Source: an uncultured Ignavibacteriota bacterium
GTDB taxonomy: Bacteria; Bacteroidota; Ignavibacteria; UBA10030; UBA8401
Reading direction: 5' to 3'
Assembly: GCA_903884005.1 (NCBI GenBank)
Contig: CAISDA010000060.1
Span: 1 to 39,168, forward strand
Length of the DNA stretch: 39,168 bases
Shown: positions 2,520 through 38,935 of the stretch, in pieces
Numbering within the stretch: position 1 is the first letter of the stretch
Layout of the letters: each line of letters opens with the position of its first letter
The notes under the pieces: model-generated
Database searches by the model: none
What the model was told of the DNA's origin: nothing
What the model saw: only the letters and a program-made list of their open reading frames with translations
Position numbers and translations under genes: made by a program

Positions 2520-2720
2520 GTAGCTGCTCAGCGTAATCTATAGTCCCTGTCATTCTGAAGGAGCGAAGCGACTGAAGAATCTCGCCGACTACTCGCACGA
2601 CGCAAGATTCTTCGCTTGCGCTCAGAATGACAGAGTACTAATGTCATATGCATGACGATTTTTGGCGCAACCAAGATTAAAACCTCAGGATGACAATGAT
2701 TTTGGTGCACACTGAGTTAC
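2520..2720 (+). mobile_element. Non-autonomous IS66-like miniature element, copy A
   Basis: A 201-bp noncoding element between the two converging sugar operons. It begins GTAGCTGCTCAG and ends CACTGAGTTAC, forming degenerate terminal inverted repeats. It is closely similar along its whole length to the copy at 19492-19693. The flanking octamers GTTTAATG (2512-2519) and GCTTAAAG (2721-2728) agree at 6 of 8 positions, consistent with a decayed target-site duplication. Internally it holds the palindrome-prone TCATTCTGAAGGAG...CTCAGAATGAC arms. No transposase is encoded. Confidence 0.7.
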
Positions 2721-8184: not shown

Positions 8185-9102
8185 ATGAAAAAAGTTCACT
8201 ACTCCGTCATAATTTTTTCTTTTCTTTTCGCATTTTTTCTGTGGTTGTCTATCAATCTCTCCAACGAATTCCAGATCAACCTTGCTGTTCCGCTGCGGAT
8301 AGACAATCTGGACAGCGCCAAAGCGCTTGCCAATCATGTCCCTCCATCCCTGACGGTGAGAGTGCGCGGCACAGGATGGAAGCTCCTGAACACGCTGCTC
8401 ACCCCTTCGCTTCAATACACGCTCGATGTCGGCGCTATTCGATGGAAAAAATTATTTTCGGCGAACAACAGCCTCAACGAGCGGTTGAATCTGGCCGAGG
8501 GTGTGAAAGTGATCGAAGTCATTCCGGACAGCATTCTCGTTGTCATAGACGACAAGGTGCACAAGCAGGTACCGCTGTCGGCGCAGATCGATGTGTCGTT
8601 TCGTGAGGGATTCGATAAGGTAGGGCCCGTGGTGATGACGCCGGACAGCGTGATCATTGTCGGGGCAAAGTCGGTGCTGGCTGTGATCACTCAATGGAGC
8701 ACACAGCCATTGACGGTGAAGGATCGCATTTCGGCCGTCAATGAAACGGTCCCTCTTGGCGATCCCTTGCTCTCAGAGATCAGCGTGTATCCGTCCACGG
8801 CTGTTATGCATTTCGACGTGCAGCCGATCGCGGAAAAAAAGATCTCGAACATCTCCGTCACCGTGAATCAACTGCCTGCCAACAGACAGGTCGTGCTCAT
8901 TCCGCCCAAGATCGATATCGTGATCCGTTCGGGCGCGCAGTATGTAGCCGGTGTGAGCGACAATGATATCACGGCGTATGTGGATTACCGGTCGCTCCTC
9001 TTGGACACCAGCGGCACAGTGCAGCCGACGATCGTATGCCCGGAGAACATCAACGTTGTCCGTCGAACGCCGGACATCCTGCAGTATGTGATCCGGAAAT
9101 AA
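8185..9102 (+). CDS. YbbR-domain protein (CdaR-like)
   Basis: A 305-residue protein with a single N-terminal membrane helix (about 6-24, after MKK) followed by an extracytoplasmic part built of repeated YbbR domains, recognisable from VPLRIDNLDS, PPSLTVRVRGT, VPLSAQIDV, GPVVMTPDSVIIVG and PPKIDIVIRSG. In Firmicutes the YbbR protein CdaR regulates the cyclic-di-AMP synthase CdaA. No such cyclase is next to it here, so its partner is unknown. The ATG at 8185 is preferred over a GTG at 8143 because that GTG lies upstream of the predicted -10 box (8155-8160). A perfect 18-bp hairpin spans its stop codon. Confidence 0.82.
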   Translation: MKKVHYSVIIFSFLFAFFLWLSINLSNEFQINLAVPLRIDNLDSAKALANHVPPSLTVRVRGTGWKLLNTLLTPSLQYTLDVGAIRWKKLFSANNSLNERLNLAEGVKVIEVIPDSILVVIDDKVHKQVPLSAQIDVSFREGFDKVGPVVMTPDSVIIVGAKSVLAVITQWSTQPLTVKDRISAVNETVPLGDPLLSEISVYPSTAVMHFDVQPIAEKKISNISVTVNQLPANRQVVLIPPKIDIVIRSGAQYVAGVSDNDITAYVDYRSLLLDTSGTVQPTIVCPENINVVRRTPDILQYVIRK

Positions 9103-9135
9103 GAAGAGCGCCCCGAAGGGGCGCTCTTCTTATTT
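9097..9135. terminator. Bidirectional terminator hairpin
   Basis: A perfect 18-bp stem (9097-9114 with 9118-9135) and a GAA loop, GC-rich at the tip and A/T-rich at its base. It includes the TAA stop of the YbbR gene. A/T bases close the stem on both strands, as expected between the converging YbbR and peptidase genes. Confidence 0.8.
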
Positions 9136-9149
9136 CGTACCTATCCACC

Positions 9150-9202
9150 GATAACTCAAATCCATGTCACTCCGACCGTGATTTGGATGCACACTGAGAT
9201 AC
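9150..9202. repeat. Remnant of the IS66-like miniature element
   Basis: About 53 bp that keep the two ends of the element seen at 2520 and 19492 but lack the middle: GATAACTCA with TCCATGTCA on the left, and GATTTGGATGCACACTGAG plus ATAC on the right. No target duplication is visible. Probably an internally deleted relic. Confidence 0.4.
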
Positions 9203-17407: not shown

Positions 17408-18187
17408 TCAGGCGGCCGAGTCCGGACGCTTTCGCGGCTTCATGCGCAGGAACAGGACAAACCCTGCGACGAGCACCAGCAGCACCGTGCCGGCGATACG
17501 CCGCACATTGAACGCATACGTGCGGCCTTCCGGATTGTAGCTGAAACAATATTTCAACAATTTGTTGATCGTGGGACTCGGACGGCCTTCATTGGCTTCC
17601 ACAAGCGCCATCTTCACATCGAACGGAAGATATTGCGTGCCATATAAATACCGCATGACCTTCCCCTGCGGCGAGATCACGATGATCGCGCCGGCATGAA
17701 TGAAGTTCGCCCCGTCGCGACGGAAGAGAAAGCCCGCTGCGTTCGTCACCGCCCGGATCGAGGCGCTGTCGCCAGTGAGGAATTTCCAGGAATTGTCCGG
17801 AATGCTTTTGTTGACGAGCGAGAGATAATTTTCCCGCTTTGCCTCTGCGAGCTCCGGTTTTTCCGTTTCATCGAAACTGATCGTGACGATCTGATAGTCC
17901 CTGCCGATCTCCATGTCCAAATGATTCACGATCGTCGTAAGTTCCGTGAGGATCGGACTGCAGATCCCCGGACATTTGAAATACACGAAATTGAGGATCG
18001 TCGGCTTGGTAACGATGTCCTTGAGCGCAACGAGATACCCCTTTTCATCGTAGAACTGGGTGTCGAGCGGCAGCTGTGCGCCGAGTTTGTCGTCAATGCC
18101 GATCTCCGGCTTCGTCTGCGCGGTCTCCGCTTTCGCGTGGAACGTGAAGGAGAATGCCAGCAATCCAAGAAGAAGTATTTTTTTCAT
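17408..18187 (-). CDS. SCO1/SenC-family copper chaperone
   Basis: A 259-residue thioredoxin-fold protein with a signal peptide (1-20) and a C-terminal membrane helix (about 232-247). The copper site is complete: C72 and C76 in KCPGIC, and H164 in FIHAGA. SCO proteins deliver or reduce copper for the CuA site of oxidase subunit II, matching its place just upstream of the oxidase genes. The C-terminal KYCFSYNPEGRTYAFNV before the last helix is common in SCO proteins of this phylum. The ATG at 18187 gives a proper signal peptide; an ATG at 18205 would add six polar residues. Confidence 0.92.
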   Translation of the reverse strand: MKKILLLGLLAFSFTFHAKAETAQTKPEIGIDDKLGAQLPLDTQFYDEKGYLVALKDIVTKPTILNFVYFKCPGICSPILTELTTIVNHLDMEIGRDYQIVTISFDETEKPELAEAKRENYLSLVNKSIPDNSWKFLTGDSASIRAVTNAAGFLFRRDGANFIHAGAIIVISPQGKVMRYLYGTQYLPFDVKMALVEANEGRPSPTINKLLKYCFSYNPEGRTYAFNVRRIAGTVLLVLVAGFVLFLRMKPRKRPDSAA

Positions 18188-18369
18188 AATATGTTCACTG
18201 TTCATAAGTACATCACATTCATACGGAGCATGGGCGAGCTAACAGCTCGCCCTACACGCACCACATATGCCCCCGAGTATTTTCATAGCAGGGCGAAATG
18301 TTATTTCGCCCTGGACGACCTAACAGCTCGCCCTACAATAGGCCGAGTCATGCACGTTACGTTATTTTT
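18188..18369. other. Intergenic spacer holding GC-rich palindromes
   Basis: The stretch between the SCO gene and the mobile-element copy B has no gene. It carries three closely spaced inverted repeats, listed separately. Together with copy B it puts 368 bp of noncoding DNA inside an otherwise tightly packed locus. Confidence 0.6.
18232..18333. repeat. Cluster of three REP-like palindromes
   Basis: Palindrome 1 is GGGCGAGCT-AAC-AGCTCGCCC (18232-18252), a perfect 9-bp stem. Palindrome 2 is AGGGCGAAAT-GTT-ATTTCGCCCT (18290-18312), a perfect 10-bp stem. Palindrome 3 (18313-18333) repeats the right arm of the first, AACAGCTCGCCC, with a decayed left arm. All share a GGGCGA...TCGCCC core and a three-base loop. 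These resemble REP elements and may act as an attenuator between the cytochrome and oxidase parts of the locus. Confidence 0.7.
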
Positions 18370-18546
18370 GCAACAACTCAGTCTGCACCAAAATCATCGT
18401 CATCCTGAGCGAAGCGAAGGATCTAAAACAGTGGTCGATACATGCGACATTAAATTCATGTTCCCCGTTGCTGATGTTTTTTATATTCTTCGGTCGCTCG
18501 AGCTCCCTCAGAATGACATGGACTAGAGAGTGCGGTGAGTAGTTAC
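18370..18546 (-). mobile_element. Non-autonomous IS66-like miniature element, copy B
   Basis: A 177-bp element in opposite orientation to copies A and C. It begins GCAACAACTCAG and ends GTGAGTAGTTAC. Its outer parts match the other copies (read on the minus strand it opens GTAACTACTCA then TCTCTAGTCCATGTCATTCTG) but the middle differs. The flanks TTATTTTT (18362-18369) and CTTTTTTT (18547-18554) agree at 6 of 8 but are T-rich, so weak evidence of a target duplication. It ends 9 bp beyond the cytochrome gene's stop. Confidence 0.65.
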
Positions 18547-19467: not shown

Positions 19468-19491
19468 GTAAACCCTGACTAATGTTTATTG

Positions 19492-19693
19492 GTAACAACT
19501 CAGTATAATCTATAGCCCCTGTCATTCTGAAGGAGCTCGAGCGACTGAAGAATCTCGCCGGCTGCTCACACGATGCAAGATTCCTCGCTTGCGCTCAGAA
19601 TGACAGAGTACTAATGTCATATGCATGCAGATTCTTGGCGCAGCCGAGATGATAACCTCAGGACATTGATTTTGATGCACGCCGAGTAGTTAC
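19492..19693 (+). mobile_element. Non-autonomous IS66-like miniature element, copy C, with perfect target duplication
   Basis: A 202-bp element that begins GTAACAACTCAG and ends CCGAGTAGTTAC, so its ends are inverted repeats starting GTAAC. It is flanked by identical octamers GTTTATTG at 19484-19491 and 19694-19701. GTAA-type ends and an 8-bp duplication are hallmarks of IS66-family transposition. No protein is encoded, so it must have been moved in trans. It separates ActF from the cytochrome gene and lies about 25 bp upstream of that gene's start codon. Confidence 0.82.
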
Positions 19694-19722
19694 GTTTATT
19701 GCACTAACAGAATGCCCCGGCA

Positions 19723-20904
19723 TCAGATCTTGAAATCGATGCCCCGCTGGAGTTTTGGATCGCCAATGGGCACCAGATTTTCTTTTCTCGCCTTGAACAC
19801 GAACGTCAGTGTGATCAGTCCGGCGATGAGCAGCGGGAAGCCCAATTCCTGCCATCCCAGCACGAGGCTCCTGCTGAAATTCGGCATGATGAGCCAGTAC
19901 ATATCGACCGTGTGCGCCAGAAAGATCCAGATGCCGATGAACTTTAATTTCCGTCCGTCCATTTTTGACGGCTGCGAGAGCAGCACGAAATACGGCACGA
20001 GGAATTTCATGAAGATCAGTGCGAGCGACACGTACTCCCACCCGTTCTTCCAGCGTGCGATAAACCAGTATGTTTCTTCGGGCACGTTTGCATACCAGAT
20101 GAGCATGAACTGGCTGAACGCGATGTACGCCCAAAAATTTGTGAACACGAACAGAAGCGTGCCCAGGCTGTAATAATGATCCTTGCCGAGACCGGCAACA
20201 AGGTATCCGCGCTCGTTGAGCGAAACGATGATGAACGTGGCGACGGCGAGAGCGCACAGGAATGTTCCCGAAAAATAATACACACCGAAAATGGTCGAGA
20301 ACCAATGCGGTTCGAGGCTCATGATCCAGTCGATGGCGAAGAACGTTGTTGTCAGCGCGAACACCGGCATGAACGCGGTTGAAAATCGAATATTGATGCG
20401 TGTATATTTTTGATCGCGCGTCGTATCCTGCTTCCGCGAAAACCGCGTGAGCATGGCATAGAAAAAGATCCATAGTACCGCGAATGCGATATTGCGGATG
20501 GTGAAGAACTGTATGTTCAGGTATGGCGACTTGCCGGCAAGAATCGGATCTTTCGCAACGGCCTCCATATGGGTCCAATGGAACACTTCGTGGAGGTTCG
20601 CCATCAGCGGCAGCGCCACCACGACGAGCGCGAAGACGGTTGCGGAGAGGAATTCCATGACGCGGCGGAACGGCGTGCTCCAGACGGCGCCGGCAAGGTA
20701 CTCGAGCGCCACATAGAACAATGCCCCGACGGCCACGCTTGCCAGAACGCTCAGCCCGATGATGTTGTTGTAGAGTCCGCGTGAGTGGTCGAACATGAAT
20801 GTCAATGCAACGATGGCCGCACCGGCTGCCGTGGCGCCCGCACCGAATGCGGTGACCGAAGCCGGAAGATCTTTTCTCTGATATGGAACCTGTGTCGTGC
20901 TCAT
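19723..20904 (-). CDS. actF: Alternative complex III subunit ActF (NrfD-like)
   Basis: A 393-residue membrane protein with about ten helices of the NrfD/PsrC type, shorter than ActC. Segments such as GALFYVALEYLAGAVWSTPFRR, NIAFAVLWIFFYAM and FSGTFLCALAVATFIIV fit ActF of ACIII. ActC and ActF together form the membrane core of the quinol:cytochrome c oxidoreductase, and ActF probably contributes a proton path. The ATG at 20904 overlaps the stop of ActDE as ATGA and AAGGAG lies upstream; the long in-frame extension upstream is inside that gene and not real. Copy C of the miniature element follows it. Confidence 0.92.
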   Translation of the reverse strand: MSTTQVPYQRKDLPASVTAFGAGATAAGAAIVALTFMFDHSRGLYNNIIGLSVLASVAVGALFYVALEYLAGAVWSTPFRRVMEFLSATVFALVVVALPLMANLHEVFHWTHMEAVAKDPILAGKSPYLNIQFFTIRNIAFAVLWIFFYAMLTRFSRKQDTTRDQKYTRINIRFSTAFMPVFALTTTFFAIDWIMSLEPHWFSTIFGVYYFSGTFLCALAVATFIIVSLNERGYLVAGLGKDHYYSLGTLLFVFTNFWAYIAFSQFMLIWYANVPEETYWFIARWKNGWEYVSLALIFMKFLVPYFVLLSQPSKMDGRKLKFIGIWIFLAHTVDMYWLIMPNFSRSLVLGWQELGFPLLIAGLITLTFVFKARKENLVPIGDPKLQRGIDFKI

Positions 20905-22040
20905 TGAGTATCGGACTCCTTTGCATTGAATGCCCGCTGCAGCGCCCGGACGTAGTGAACAATTGCCCAGCGTTCCTCGCGGCTGACCTGCGATGCATAG
21001 GACGGCATGATATTTTGTCCCTCGGTGATCACATGGAAAATATTTCCGTCGGGCCAATTGCGGACCTTGTCCGAATGAAGCGTCGGCGGGTTCGGGAACT
21101 GTCCGCGCAGGCGGCTGTCGCCCCTGGCGAAATTACCGTGGCAGGGGCTGCAATAGGTCAGGAACTTCGTCTTGCCCAGCGCGAGCGCCTCTGATGTCGG
21201 CTGCAGCGGATTGACGAGATATTTGCCGGCCGAATCCGGCATTCCCTTGAATGGATACGGAATGAATCCCCGCGCAACCGTGCCGTCGGGGGCCGATCGC
21301 ATCATGCGTGTGTCGTCATATTGGGCCGTCGGTGTCTGCGGCTTGAATTTGTTTTGATTGCTCATCCAGTCGAACGGCGGCAGGTACAGCAGCTTGTTCA
21401 AATGGAGATACGTGGAGCCGGATACGAAGAGCGCCACACCTACAAGCAACGCCAGGAATTTCGGATCGAACGTTGTCCACGTATGCCGCAATTCCTCTTC
21501 ATCATAGAATACCGGTGCGACCGTCAGTGGATGAAGCGAGGACAGCAGCGCGGTGACTGCGGCTTCGTCGAATTTCGGATCGTTTGCCTGAATGCTGATG
21601 CCGAATTTATCCGACGACACATTTTTCATGTACGGCGTATCGTGAAGCGGATGGCTGTTGTTAGGAAATTTAAAGAAAAAAACGATCAGCGAGCCGATGG
21701 TGAGCAGCACGGCGGAGAGCACCGTGATCTCGAATGTGACCGGAACGAACGCGGGCCAAGAGAAGTACGGCTTGCCGCCGATCACATTGGGATACGCGGC
21801 CAGGAACACCCAGGAGATGAACGCGAACACCCCCGCGCCGCCCAGGAGGCCGGCCCCGAGTGTGATGAACCCGAGTTTCGAATCCTTGAGCTCCATGGCA
21901 TCGTCCATGCCGTGCACGGGATACGGTGTATGAACATCGTACCGTTTGTAGCCTGCGTTCCTGACGGCCTCCGCGGCATGGATAATGCCGTCGGGAGTGT
22001 CGAATAGCGCAGTAACAGAGTACAGTAAATTTTTATTCAT
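20901..22040 (-). CDS. Fused alternative complex III subunits ActD and ActE
   Basis: A 379-residue protein that joins two subunits usually encoded separately. Residues 1-175 are the DUF3341/ActD membrane protein, with two helices (about 57-84 and 100-124) and the YKRYDVHTPYPVHGMDDAM segment. Residues 193-379 are an ActE-like part: a membrane helix (about 194-213) and a cytochrome c domain with CSPCH (297-301) and distal Met M345 (NIMPSYASQ). ActE carries electrons from ActB toward the terminal acceptor. There is no stop or frameshift between the halves. The ATG at 22040 follows ActC by 60 bp. Confidence 0.9.
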   Translation of the reverse strand: MNKNLLYSVTALFDTPDGIIHAAEAVRNAGYKRYDVHTPYPVHGMDDAMELKDSKLGFITLGAGLLGGAGVFAFISWVFLAAYPNVIGGKPYFSWPAFVPVTFEITVLSAVLLTIGSLIVFFFKFPNNSHPLHDTPYMKNVSSDKFGISIQANDPKFDEAAVTALLSSLHPLTVAPVFYDEEELRHTWTTFDPKFLALLVGVALFVSGSTYLHLNKLLYLPPFDWMSNQNKFKPQTPTAQYDDTRMMRSAPDGTVARGFIPYPFKGMPDSAGKYLVNPLQPTSEALALGKTKFLTYCSPCHGNFARGDSRLRGQFPNPPTLHSDKVRNWPDGNIFHVITEGQNIMPSYASQVSREERWAIVHYVRALQRAFNAKESDTQ

Positions 22041-37252: not shown

Positions 37253-37327
37253 GGGGTCGTAGCTCAGTTTGGTTAGAGCGTCTGCCTGTCACGCAGAAGG
37301 TCGCGGGTTCGAGCCCCGTCGACCCCG
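37253..37327 (+). tRNA. tRNA-Asp (GTC)
   Basis: A 75-nt cloverleaf. The acceptor stem GGGGTCG (37253-37259) pairs with CGACCCC (37320-37326), discriminator G37327; anticodon stem TCTGC/GCAGA (37281-37285, 37293-37297) with anticodon GTC at 37288-37290; T-loop GGTTCGAGCC. CCA is not encoded (CTT follows), so it must be added after transcription. Its 3' half is the antisense of the recombinase's last codons. Confidence 0.97.
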
Positions 37328-38935
37328 CTTAACAGGGGACTTAGAGAACTCTCTCTTGGTCCCCTTTTTTATTGGTTCTACGTAGACTCCACCATCGATT
37401 GCTATCCGTATTTCCGTATCCAAACTGATTACGTGATCGATGAGATGTTGAGCCAGTTGCTGCTGTTCTGCCGGTGATAGCAAGTTGAATACATGGTCAA
37501 AGTTTGCTAATGTCTCTCTAACCAGCTGAAAATCGACTTTCTCAGCATTTTCCTTCGCAATCTCCTCTTCTTTCATCTGCATATGCTTGTCGATTTCGCT
37601 AATTTCCCTAGCAATTGTCTCACCCTTTGATTGGAGATGCTCCTTCGCCGCAGTTGCATCTAATCCCCTAACCATATTATAGACCTGATCAAATTCGTCT
37701 GATTTCGCTTTTTTTAACAAATTCAGATCAGCTAGCTGACTCCTGAGCCGTGGCAACTCTTCAGTCACAATACGATTTGTTTCATCGGTGAGCATTTTTA
37801 ACCGTTTGTGATCTTGCGACAATTCGCCTATCTTAATTCGGACTTGTTTTTCTATCGCTTCCGCTGGTATCCTTGTTTTACACTTTTCACATAAGTAATA
37901 ATGGTGGCTCTTCCCAGTTTTTGAAGTCCCTGAACTTGCACGCATCTTAACATGAACATCCCCATTCTTTGCTGTGCATTTACCACACACAACCAACCCT
38001 GCAAGGAGAAAATTTTTCTTTTTAGAACCAACCGTATTCCCCTTCGCTAATAAATTCCTCCTCATTATATCCTGAACTTGAATAAATTTCTCTTCATCGA
38101 TGATCGGACTCCATAGACCATCAATGACTTTGTAACGCCGGGCTTCAGGAAGTCTTGTTTGGTCGACATCTTTTCTCCCTTTGCTAATTTCGAATTTCCC
38201 AATATATGCGAGGTTGGTGAGGATTCGACGTATTGTTTCATCTGCAAAATCTTGTGGTTTTCTTTCTTTACCCTTCTCTGTGATATATGAGGCGGTTTTC
38301 AACCCCTTCGTCTTTAACCTCGACAGCACCATTCCAATCGATCCAGTTTCGATGTATGTGTCATAAATGAATTCAATTGTCTTGGCATTAATTGGGTCGA
38401 CTTGGAGATACCCTCTCTTCCCCTCGACTGGCTTATAACCTAATATACGGCCAGCCGTCCAAAGGCCACGATTCGCTCGTGAGAGAATGTTATCTGATAC
38501 ACGTTCACCAGTCTGTTCAGATTCTAATTCATAGAAGACGAGCATGAATTTAAGGAGAGCTCTGCCTATTGCGGTTGATGTATCAAAATTTTCTTTCAAA
38601 GAGATTATTGCAACATCATGTTTTTCGCATATATCTTGTAACTCATAAAAATCACGTAAAGACCTATTAAGGCGACTAATGCTGATTGAAACGATTGCCC
38701 TAAGTTTTCCAGATCGGACATCATTAAGCATACGCTGATATTCAAGCCGTCTTGTAGTTGTTCCACTTTCCACATCTTCATACACTCGAAAGATGGTATA
38801 ATCGCGCCCGTAGGCCTTATTGGAAAGTTCGACCCAATCTCCAAGACGTTGGTGCTGAGACTTCAACGACCCCTCGTCAATCCTTGCTTGACGGTCAGTT
38901 GATACCCGAATATATAAACCAATATTTGTTCCCAT
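37289..38935 (-). CDS. Large serine recombinase ending inside tRNA-Asp
   Basis: A 548-residue site-specific recombinase. Residues 5-150 are the resolvase-type catalytic domain with nucleophile S12 (YIRVSTDRQ) and the SRLNRSLRD arginine motif; about 160-300 are the Recombinase domain, C317/C320 and C349/C352 form a zinc ribbon, and about 365-470 a coiled coil, the standard large serine integrase layout. AAGGGGGG precedes the ATG at 38935. Its last 12 residues (537-548) are encoded by the antisense of tRNA-Asp and the TGA stop lies across the anticodon. This places the attachment junction at the 3' end of the tRNA. Base composition looks more AT-rich than the rest of the window. Confidence 0.93.
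   Translation of the reverse strand: MGTNIGLYIRVSTDRQARIDEGSLKSQHQRLGDWVELSNKAYGRDYTIFRVYEDVESGTTTRRLEYQRMLNDVRSGKLRAIVSISISRLNRSLRDFYELQDICEKHDVAIISLKENFDTSTAIGRALLKFMLVFYELESEQTGERVSDNILSRANRGLWTAGRILGYKPVEGKRGYLQVDPINAKTIEFIYDTYIETGSIGMVLSRLKTKGLKTASYITEKGKERKPQDFADETIRRILTNLAYIGKFEISKGRKDVDQTRLPEARRYKVIDGLWSPIIDEEKFIQVQDIMRRNLLAKGNTVGSKKKNFLLAGLVVCGKCTAKNGDVHVKMRASSGTSKTGKSHHYYLCEKCKTRIPAEAIEKQVRIKIGELSQDHKRLKMLTDETNRIVTEELPRLRSQLADLNLLKKAKSDEFDQVYNMVRGLDATAAKEHLQSKGETIAREISEIDKHMQMKEEEIAKENAEKVDFQLVRETLANFDHVFNLLSPAEQQQLAQHLIDHVISLDTEIRIAIDGGVYVEPIKKGTKREFSKSPVKRGRRGSNPRPSA

Follow-up and report, generated by a model that had tools for sequence, protein, structure and literature searches.

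A MITE family with an interior of covarying hairpins, in all likelihood mobilised by an ISBst12-group IS66 transposase, in an uncultured Ignavibacteriota bacterium

The 202-bp repeat considered here belongs to a MITE family, a large set of small mobile elements without genes, in the genome of an uncultured Ignavibacteriota bacterium. The observations as a whole are best explained by movement of this family by an IS66-family transposase of the ISBst12 group, an explanation in which we place high confidence. According to this model, a single-gene IS66 transposase of the ISBst12 group would recognise GTAAYTRCTCAG-type ends, cut or copy the element, and insert it at A/T-rich, mostly intergenic sites with duplication of 8 bp. 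The MITE is very probably moved in trans, either by the transposase resident in the genome or by a closely related one that had GTAAC ends and has since been lost. A pair of hairpins would have been captured between IS ends and then amplified with them. The family is ordinary as a MITE; what is new is its interior of tagged, covarying hairpins, which are mostly better conserved than the element ends.

The window, meaning the whole stretch of DNA that was analysed (39,168 nucleotides), makes up a single contig of 39 kb (C60) in a genome of 4.53 Mb that is assembled in 89 contigs. Direct reading shows that the element starts with GTAACAACTCAG and ends with CGAGTAGTTAC (GTAAC/GTTAC), and that the octamers on its two sides are identical, forming a perfect 8-bp target duplication. 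A sequence-only reading of the window had claimed these ends and octamers, along with two further copies and a relic, and all of them are located where it had placed them. The features are as follows.

19484 to 19491, no strand: left copy of the 8-bp target duplication, GTTTATTG (direct reading)
19492 to 19693, forward strand: 202-bp MITE of the long subfamily (reading and genome alignment of copies)
19492 to 19503, forward strand: left terminal inverted repeat, GTAACAACTCAG (reading and end-motif search)
19520 to 19554, forward strand: tagged hairpin unit A, TGTC-ATTCT-GA-AG-GA-GC-TCGA-GC-GA-CT-GA-AGAAT-C (copy alignment, covariation)
19579 to 19605, reverse strand: tagged hairpin unit B, facing unit A, GATTCCTCG... 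in the 202-bp window copy (copy alignment, covariation)
19630 to 19651, forward strand: third hairpin, of a different type (CTTGGC-GCA-GCCGAG in the window copy), with paired changes across copies
19682 to 19693, reverse strand: right terminal inverted repeat, GTAACTACTCGG on the other strand (end-motif search)
19694 to 19701, no strand: right copy of the 8-bp target duplication, GTTTATTG (direct reading)
2520 to 2720, forward strand: related copy of 201 bp, flanks GTTTAATG and GCTTAAAG, 6/8 alike
18370 to 18546, forward strand: related copy of 177 bp, short subfamily, flanks TTATTTTT and CTTTTTTT, 6/8 alike
18398 to 18424, forward strand: tagged hairpin unit in the 177-bp copy, CGTC-ATCCT-GA-GC-GAA-GC-GA-AGGAT
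18484 to 18518, reverse strand: facing tagged hairpin unit in the 177-bp copy
9150 to 9202, forward strand: relic with almost no interior, end remnants GATAACTCA and (other strand) GTATCTCAG (direct reading)

The duplication is perfect in just one of the three larger window copies, the 202-bp one, and no flanking duplication was seen by eye at the relic. The copies have no coding capacity of their own: among the window ORFs of at least 90 aa, two touch a copy (17696-18526 and 19658-20998), and both start outside it. Other structures lie nearby. A palindrome of another type, GGGCGAAAT-GTT-ATTTCGCCC (18291-18311), adjoins the 177-bp copy, and a terminator-like long hairpin, GAAATAAGAAGAGCGCCCC-GAA-GGGGCGCTCTTCTTATTTC (9096-9136), stands just before the relic. 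Close to the contig end, a 548-aa ORF (37289-38935) resembles, by eye, a large serine recombinase.

The copies of 202 and 177 bp and the conserved core served as queries in searches of the genome (the best 40 of 109 and 40 of 113 candidates). At least 86 distinct places match the family or its core, some of them the core only, with a total length of at least 13.2 kb. To place the ends of each copy, only the motif GTAACTACTCAG, or the shortened version GTAACTCAG, was used, and the flanks were ignored. The 77 candidate intervals yielded 41 distinct copies with both ends identified and a length of 160-215 bp; the 36 left out failed this filter or repeated a place already counted. The 41 intact copies fall into two length classes, 195-208 bp and 170-179 bp. 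Their end consensus, GTAACTACTCAG, starts with GTAA, and single ends vary (GCAAC, GTATC and others).

Common ends and an 8-bp duplication are indeed what the genome copies display. The facing octamers agree at 8/8 positions in nine copies, at 7/8 in eight, at 6/8 in nine and at 5/8 or fewer in 15. Duplications of at least 7/8 are therefore present in 17 of the 41 copies, whereas 10,000 shuffles gave 0.88 such copies on average and never more than 6. Mean identity of the facing 8-mers is 0.738, compared to 0.347 for mispaired flanks, and the peak occurs at 8 bp only, other lengths from 3 to 14 giving 0.31-0.47. It had been proposed in advance that a lack of duplications in most copies, or of shared ends, would count against mobilisation by IS66. 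Taken literally, the first half of that applies, since 24 of the 41 copies score below 7/8 and nine are perfect; the second does not, the ends being common to the copies. The agreement between facing octamers is nonetheless far above that of mispaired flanks and is seen at length 8 alone, as would be expected if the lower-scoring copies carried decayed duplications.

Eight copies (L003, L006, L011, L015, L022, L026, L074 and L091) have a recurrent short end, GTAACTCAG or close to it, in place of GTAACTACTCAG. Duplications score 7/8 at L011 and L015 and 8/8 at L074, and L022, one of the intervals left out, has a perfect AAATAATG duplication by eye. Based on these four, the shortened end may transpose too.

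Alternatively, the repeat might be an intergenic element under selection, acting as a regulator or terminator, which recombination has spread, with the duplications arising by chance in A/T-rich gaps. Target positions 2-8 are A/T-rich in the 41 copies, and only 14 of 38 copies lie inside ORFs of at least 200 aa, whereas 622 of 698 random positions taken from these flanks do (shadow ORFs inflate both counts, and the 14 include the window copy, which is itself located between two genes). Two of the hairpins are also the most conserved parts of the element. Nevertheless, the match between facing octamers is far above that of mispaired flanks and confined to length 8, and where the left octamer holds at least three different bases, 14 of 29 copies still reach 7/8. 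The corresponding gene gap in relatives, which is without the element, also speaks against this explanation, and we regard it as extremely unlikely. Selection on the hairpins after insertion may be compatible with the duplication data.

The gap comparison used the neighbouring gene (19723-21057), which was found in 17 of 22 genomes. The matching gap is without the element in all eight relatives where it is readable, namely the same-genus genome G001 and seven others. It was read in G001 and in eight other printed loci, one of which (L332) did not show the gap; in six (L325-L330) it is about 20 bases or less by eye, and in L331 it is longer, again without such an element by eye. The G001 gap lacks the MITE and holds a different small GGGCGA...TCGCCC repeat. 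An exact empty site was not found in the eight relatives, whose DNA is too diverged, so that the comparison shows absence alone. A sequence similar to the palindrome beside the 177-bp copy, GGGCGAGATAAATCTCGCCC, occurs in this same gap of G001 (L324, 94-113).

A candidate source of transposase is present in the genome. The sequence-only reading had stated that no transposase is present, which holds for the listed ORFs of the window as far as these were inspected and fails for the genome, where a profile search gave five matches to the IS66 DDE domain (PF03050). One resident IS66 element is 1,552 bp long, with GTAATTACTCA at both ends and an open frame of 489 aa that carries IS66 DDE, DUF6444 and zf-IS66 domains. 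The GTAATTACTCA ends differ from the MITE consensus by one mismatch over 11 bases; the IS ends read GTAATTAC and most MITE ends GTAACTAC, and the likeness stops after about 12-14 bases. Because the complete IS stops exactly at a contig end, a duplication is readable not there but in an internally deleted copy of 1,024 bp, which is flanked by a perfect 8-bp duplication, AAACATCG. TnpB (PF05717) gave no match in the profile search of the genome, which fits the single-gene ISBst12 group rather than a canonical tnpA/tnpB/tnpC IS66. Thus the expected full IS66 element with the same ends turned out to be one with nearly the same ends and of the single-gene kind. Matches to this transposase at E<=1e-20 were confined to the window's genome (none in 59 others), as were matches spanning the whole MITE among the best candidates, at most 13 per genome, in the 60 genomes. 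The shared ends, the 8-bp duplications and this resident partner together support the earlier proposal of a non-autonomous family mobilised by IS66.

The assembly breaks at the IS66 right end on both sides of contig C40, whose opposite end carries 141 bases identical to the IS right end with different flanks; since both contig ends (L055 and L185) lie at an IS66 right end and the flanks differ, a second, recent copy is likely. Two decayed copies of this IS66 element lie within 9.5 kb at L056 (C54:9500-24500), one internally deleted and with a perfect duplication, the other without its left part. The C64 transposase copy has the right end GTAAATGCTCAG and no recognisable left end.

The idea that the MITE arose from the resident IS by internal deletion was considered and rejected: beyond the ends, only words of 8-26 bases match, at E 0.39 or worse. 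The interior as a whole shows chance-level matches to the IS only.

Several IS families make 8-bp duplications, and so a different DDE transposase, for example of the IS1595 or IS256 type, might be the one that moves the family. The transposase searches of the genome covered IS66 DDE (PF03050) and Y1 (PF01797), which leaves room for such an enzyme. Yet IS1595- and IS256-type ends start with GG, and the end motif of the MITE matches that of the resident IS66, of six perfect elements elsewhere and of ISDge4, as far as the latter is described in the portion of its report available to us (PMC12898284). This alternative is accordingly judged very unlikely.

The six perfect elements come from a wider search for related transposases, which found 44 loci, 28 of which were scanned for ends. 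In six of the 28, both ends and a perfect 8-bp duplication were found around elements of 1,528-1,707 bp, in Paenibacillus, Clostridiales, Rhodobiaceae, Pseudorhodobacter, Bradyrhizobium and Azospirillum records. The two Paenibacillus ends are the MITE consensus GTAACTACTCAG itself, and the ends of the other relatives are variants such as GTAACTGCCCAG, GTAACTATTCAG and GTAACAGCCCAG. ISDge4 of Deinococcus geothermalis, a member of the IS66 family and ISBst12 group that has been observed to transpose, is described in the portion consulted as having ends GTGACTACTCAGCA/GTAACTGCTCAGCA, an 8-bp direct repeat and a single transposase gene (PMC12898284). The MITE resembles ISDge4 in its ends and duplication length, and differs in being gene-less and only 170-208 bp long (41 intact copies). 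Bacterial MITEs are described, in the part consulted of a published study, as non-coding elements of 70-300 bp with terminal inverted repeats, often located beside genes and movable by a transposase that recognises their ends (PMC3733652). The present family shares these traits and differs by its interior of covarying hairpins, which is common to elements with other ends. An ISBst12-type MITE was not found in the literature searched, where coverage of subscription papers was poor.

Several observations weigh against mobilisation by an ISBst12-group transposase. The IS and MITE ends differ, 24 of the 41 copies score below 7/8, with 6/8 in the two other window copies, and two ends with a perfect duplication were not seen in 22 of the 28 related loci, many of which are cut by contig ends or partial. 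The complete IS, lying at a contig end, shows no readable duplication of its own, and the comparison with diverged relatives gave no exact empty site.

The units of the interior can fold as TGTC-ATTCT-GA-GC-GNA-GC-GA-AGAAT, with a twin form in which the stem is ATCCT/AGGAT. Each consists of a 5-bp stem, GA/GA mismatches, a 2-bp clamp and mostly a GNA triloop (TCGA or GCAA in some copies), a layout that the unit search patterns themselves fixed. In the IMG/VR viral contigs, 97 stretches hold the ATTCT/AGAAT form and 81 the ATCCT/AGGAT form, whereas the mixed stems occur in none (C-A form) and two (T-G form), and a reversed control of the ATTCT/AGAAT form in none. Loci were examined in 80 of the 97 stretches (101 units) and 80 of the 81 (88 units). 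With the clamp bases left free, the clamp pair is G-C in 84 of 101 units of the ATTCT form and A-T in 12, and G-C in 74 of 88 units of the ATCCT form and A-T in nine, while the loop base varies freely. The tag is likewise conserved in these contigs: TGT stands directly 5' of CATTCTGA in 90 of the 101 units (CGT in three) and of CATCCTGA in 71 of the 88 (CGT in six).

Among the copies of the genome itself, the structure outscores every one of 500 shuffles in the number of paired cells, in the number of cells changed on both sides and in covariation score. Further pair types are not above the shuffles (116/500 and 500/500 as high), and the count of pairs changed on both sides was reached by 8/500 and 187/500 shuffles; all of these counts measure sequences, not events. 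In the 177-bp subfamily, identity is 0.96 and 0.94 in the units, 0.75 and 0.70 in the ends, 0.79 and 0.69 in the linkers and 0.66 in the spacer. The contrast is weaker in the 202-bp subfamily, with 0.88 and 0.97 in the units, 0.79 in the third hairpin, 0.68 and 0.74 in the ends, 0.56 in the left linker and 0.81, 0.86 and 0.73 in the spacers. Since the copies were collected through their similarity, conserved interiors may be favoured in these values. The sequence d(GCGAAGC) is a very stable DNA mini-hairpin. Calculated DNA folding energies reveal no exceptional stability in two single units (z +0.44 and -0.68, run on the GNA-loop form and not on unit A of the window copy) or in a 107-base composite (z +1.24); the whole 202-bp window element has z -1.89. 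Because energies alone do not single out the units, the case for the hairpins rests on covariation.

The tags raise the possibility that the hairpins themselves are the mobile unit, as REP-like sequences moved by a Y1 (RAYT) transposase, with the GTAAC ends secondary. CGTC-tagged REPs, in the part of the same study consulted, have a CGTC or TGTC tag and a stem that starts with AT, a stem length of 8-9 bp and loops of 4-5 bases (PMC3733652). The MITE units share the tag and the AT-starting stem and face each other with tags outside, the layout that the same source calls head-head for GTAG repeats. In addition, 20 of 25 facing pairs in relatives have no terminal repeat above control. The resemblance does not extend to the 5-bp stem with its GA/GA mismatches, 2-bp clamp and mostly GNA triloop, which depart from the stem and loop lengths given for CGTC REPs (PMC3733652), and the 8-bp duplications flank the GTAAC ends on their outer side and do not adjoin the hairpins. 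Y1 mobilisation was set aside because the genome has no match to PF01797, although a helper could have been lost; we rate it as improbable.

Mobilisation through the GTAAC ends leaves the wider distribution of the hairpins to be considered. At least 21 of 59 other genomes have matches to the interior only (query positions 28-120, among the best candidates, at most 13 per genome). The earlier remark that the interior looks like a dispersed repeat can thereby be refined: it consists of covarying hairpins, which in relatives are found within elements whose ends are different. Several relatives' hairpin pairs sit between the terminal repeats GGCTGTCCAAAAAG, CTCGGGGTTGTCCCAAAAG, GAGGCTGACTAAAAAGTA, TAACAGGCTGTTGAAAAA and AAGCCATCTCAAAAAT. 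Repeats unrelated to GTAAC flank the pair at L151, L153, L160, L168, L205 and L173, with a possible TTAG duplication by eye at L151. The evidence is of modest strength: of 42 loci scanned, 13 had no facing pair, and merging of repeated sequences left 25, five of which have terminal repeats above the 99% level of mispaired flanks. A rerun gave seven of 45 rows, or four distinct loci, an optional letter having doubled rows, and near-identical loci inflate the control maxima in both scans. The A-rich end types may be one or two superfamilies.

Within the phylum, few genomes contain the exact long unit (six of 395, this one included). The repeat was found in no phage records and in two plasmid records, both cyanobacterial, and the right-end pattern of the MITE was not found in the viral contigs. 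A simple pattern looking up to 150 bases downstream finds a facing partner for 18 of 101 and 22 of 88 units in these contigs; most units have none, which speaks against the facing pair as an obligatory form. One IMG/VR contig (L276) has nine unit hairpins on a 9.8-kb stretch, several of them 30-50 bases apart.

In other genera, then, the hairpins sit between unrelated ends, and the hairpin interior deserves its own study. Tentatively, the dispersed hairpin (TGTC-ATTCT-GA-GC-GNA-GC-GA-AGAAT and its ATCCT twin) might be a selected cargo module in miniature elements of unrelated transposase families, a reading we consider possible but doubtful. It would travel between IS66/ISBst12-type ends in this genome and between ends such as GGCTGTCCAAAAAG or GGGGTTGTCCCAAAAG in other genera, and it may help its carriers, for example by folding as single-stranded DNA at replication forks. 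If so, this would be modular parasitism, which we did not meet in the literature searched (titles and a few passages); searches for the dispersed repeat gave nothing related among the titles listed. To our knowledge, the dispersed repeat TCATTCTGAG...GAAGAATC is common and usually left unexplained. The present family gives it a definite carrier, for which a transposase group can be named, and so makes its spread testable, and the cargo reading, if true, would explain one common unexplained repeat of bacterial genomes.
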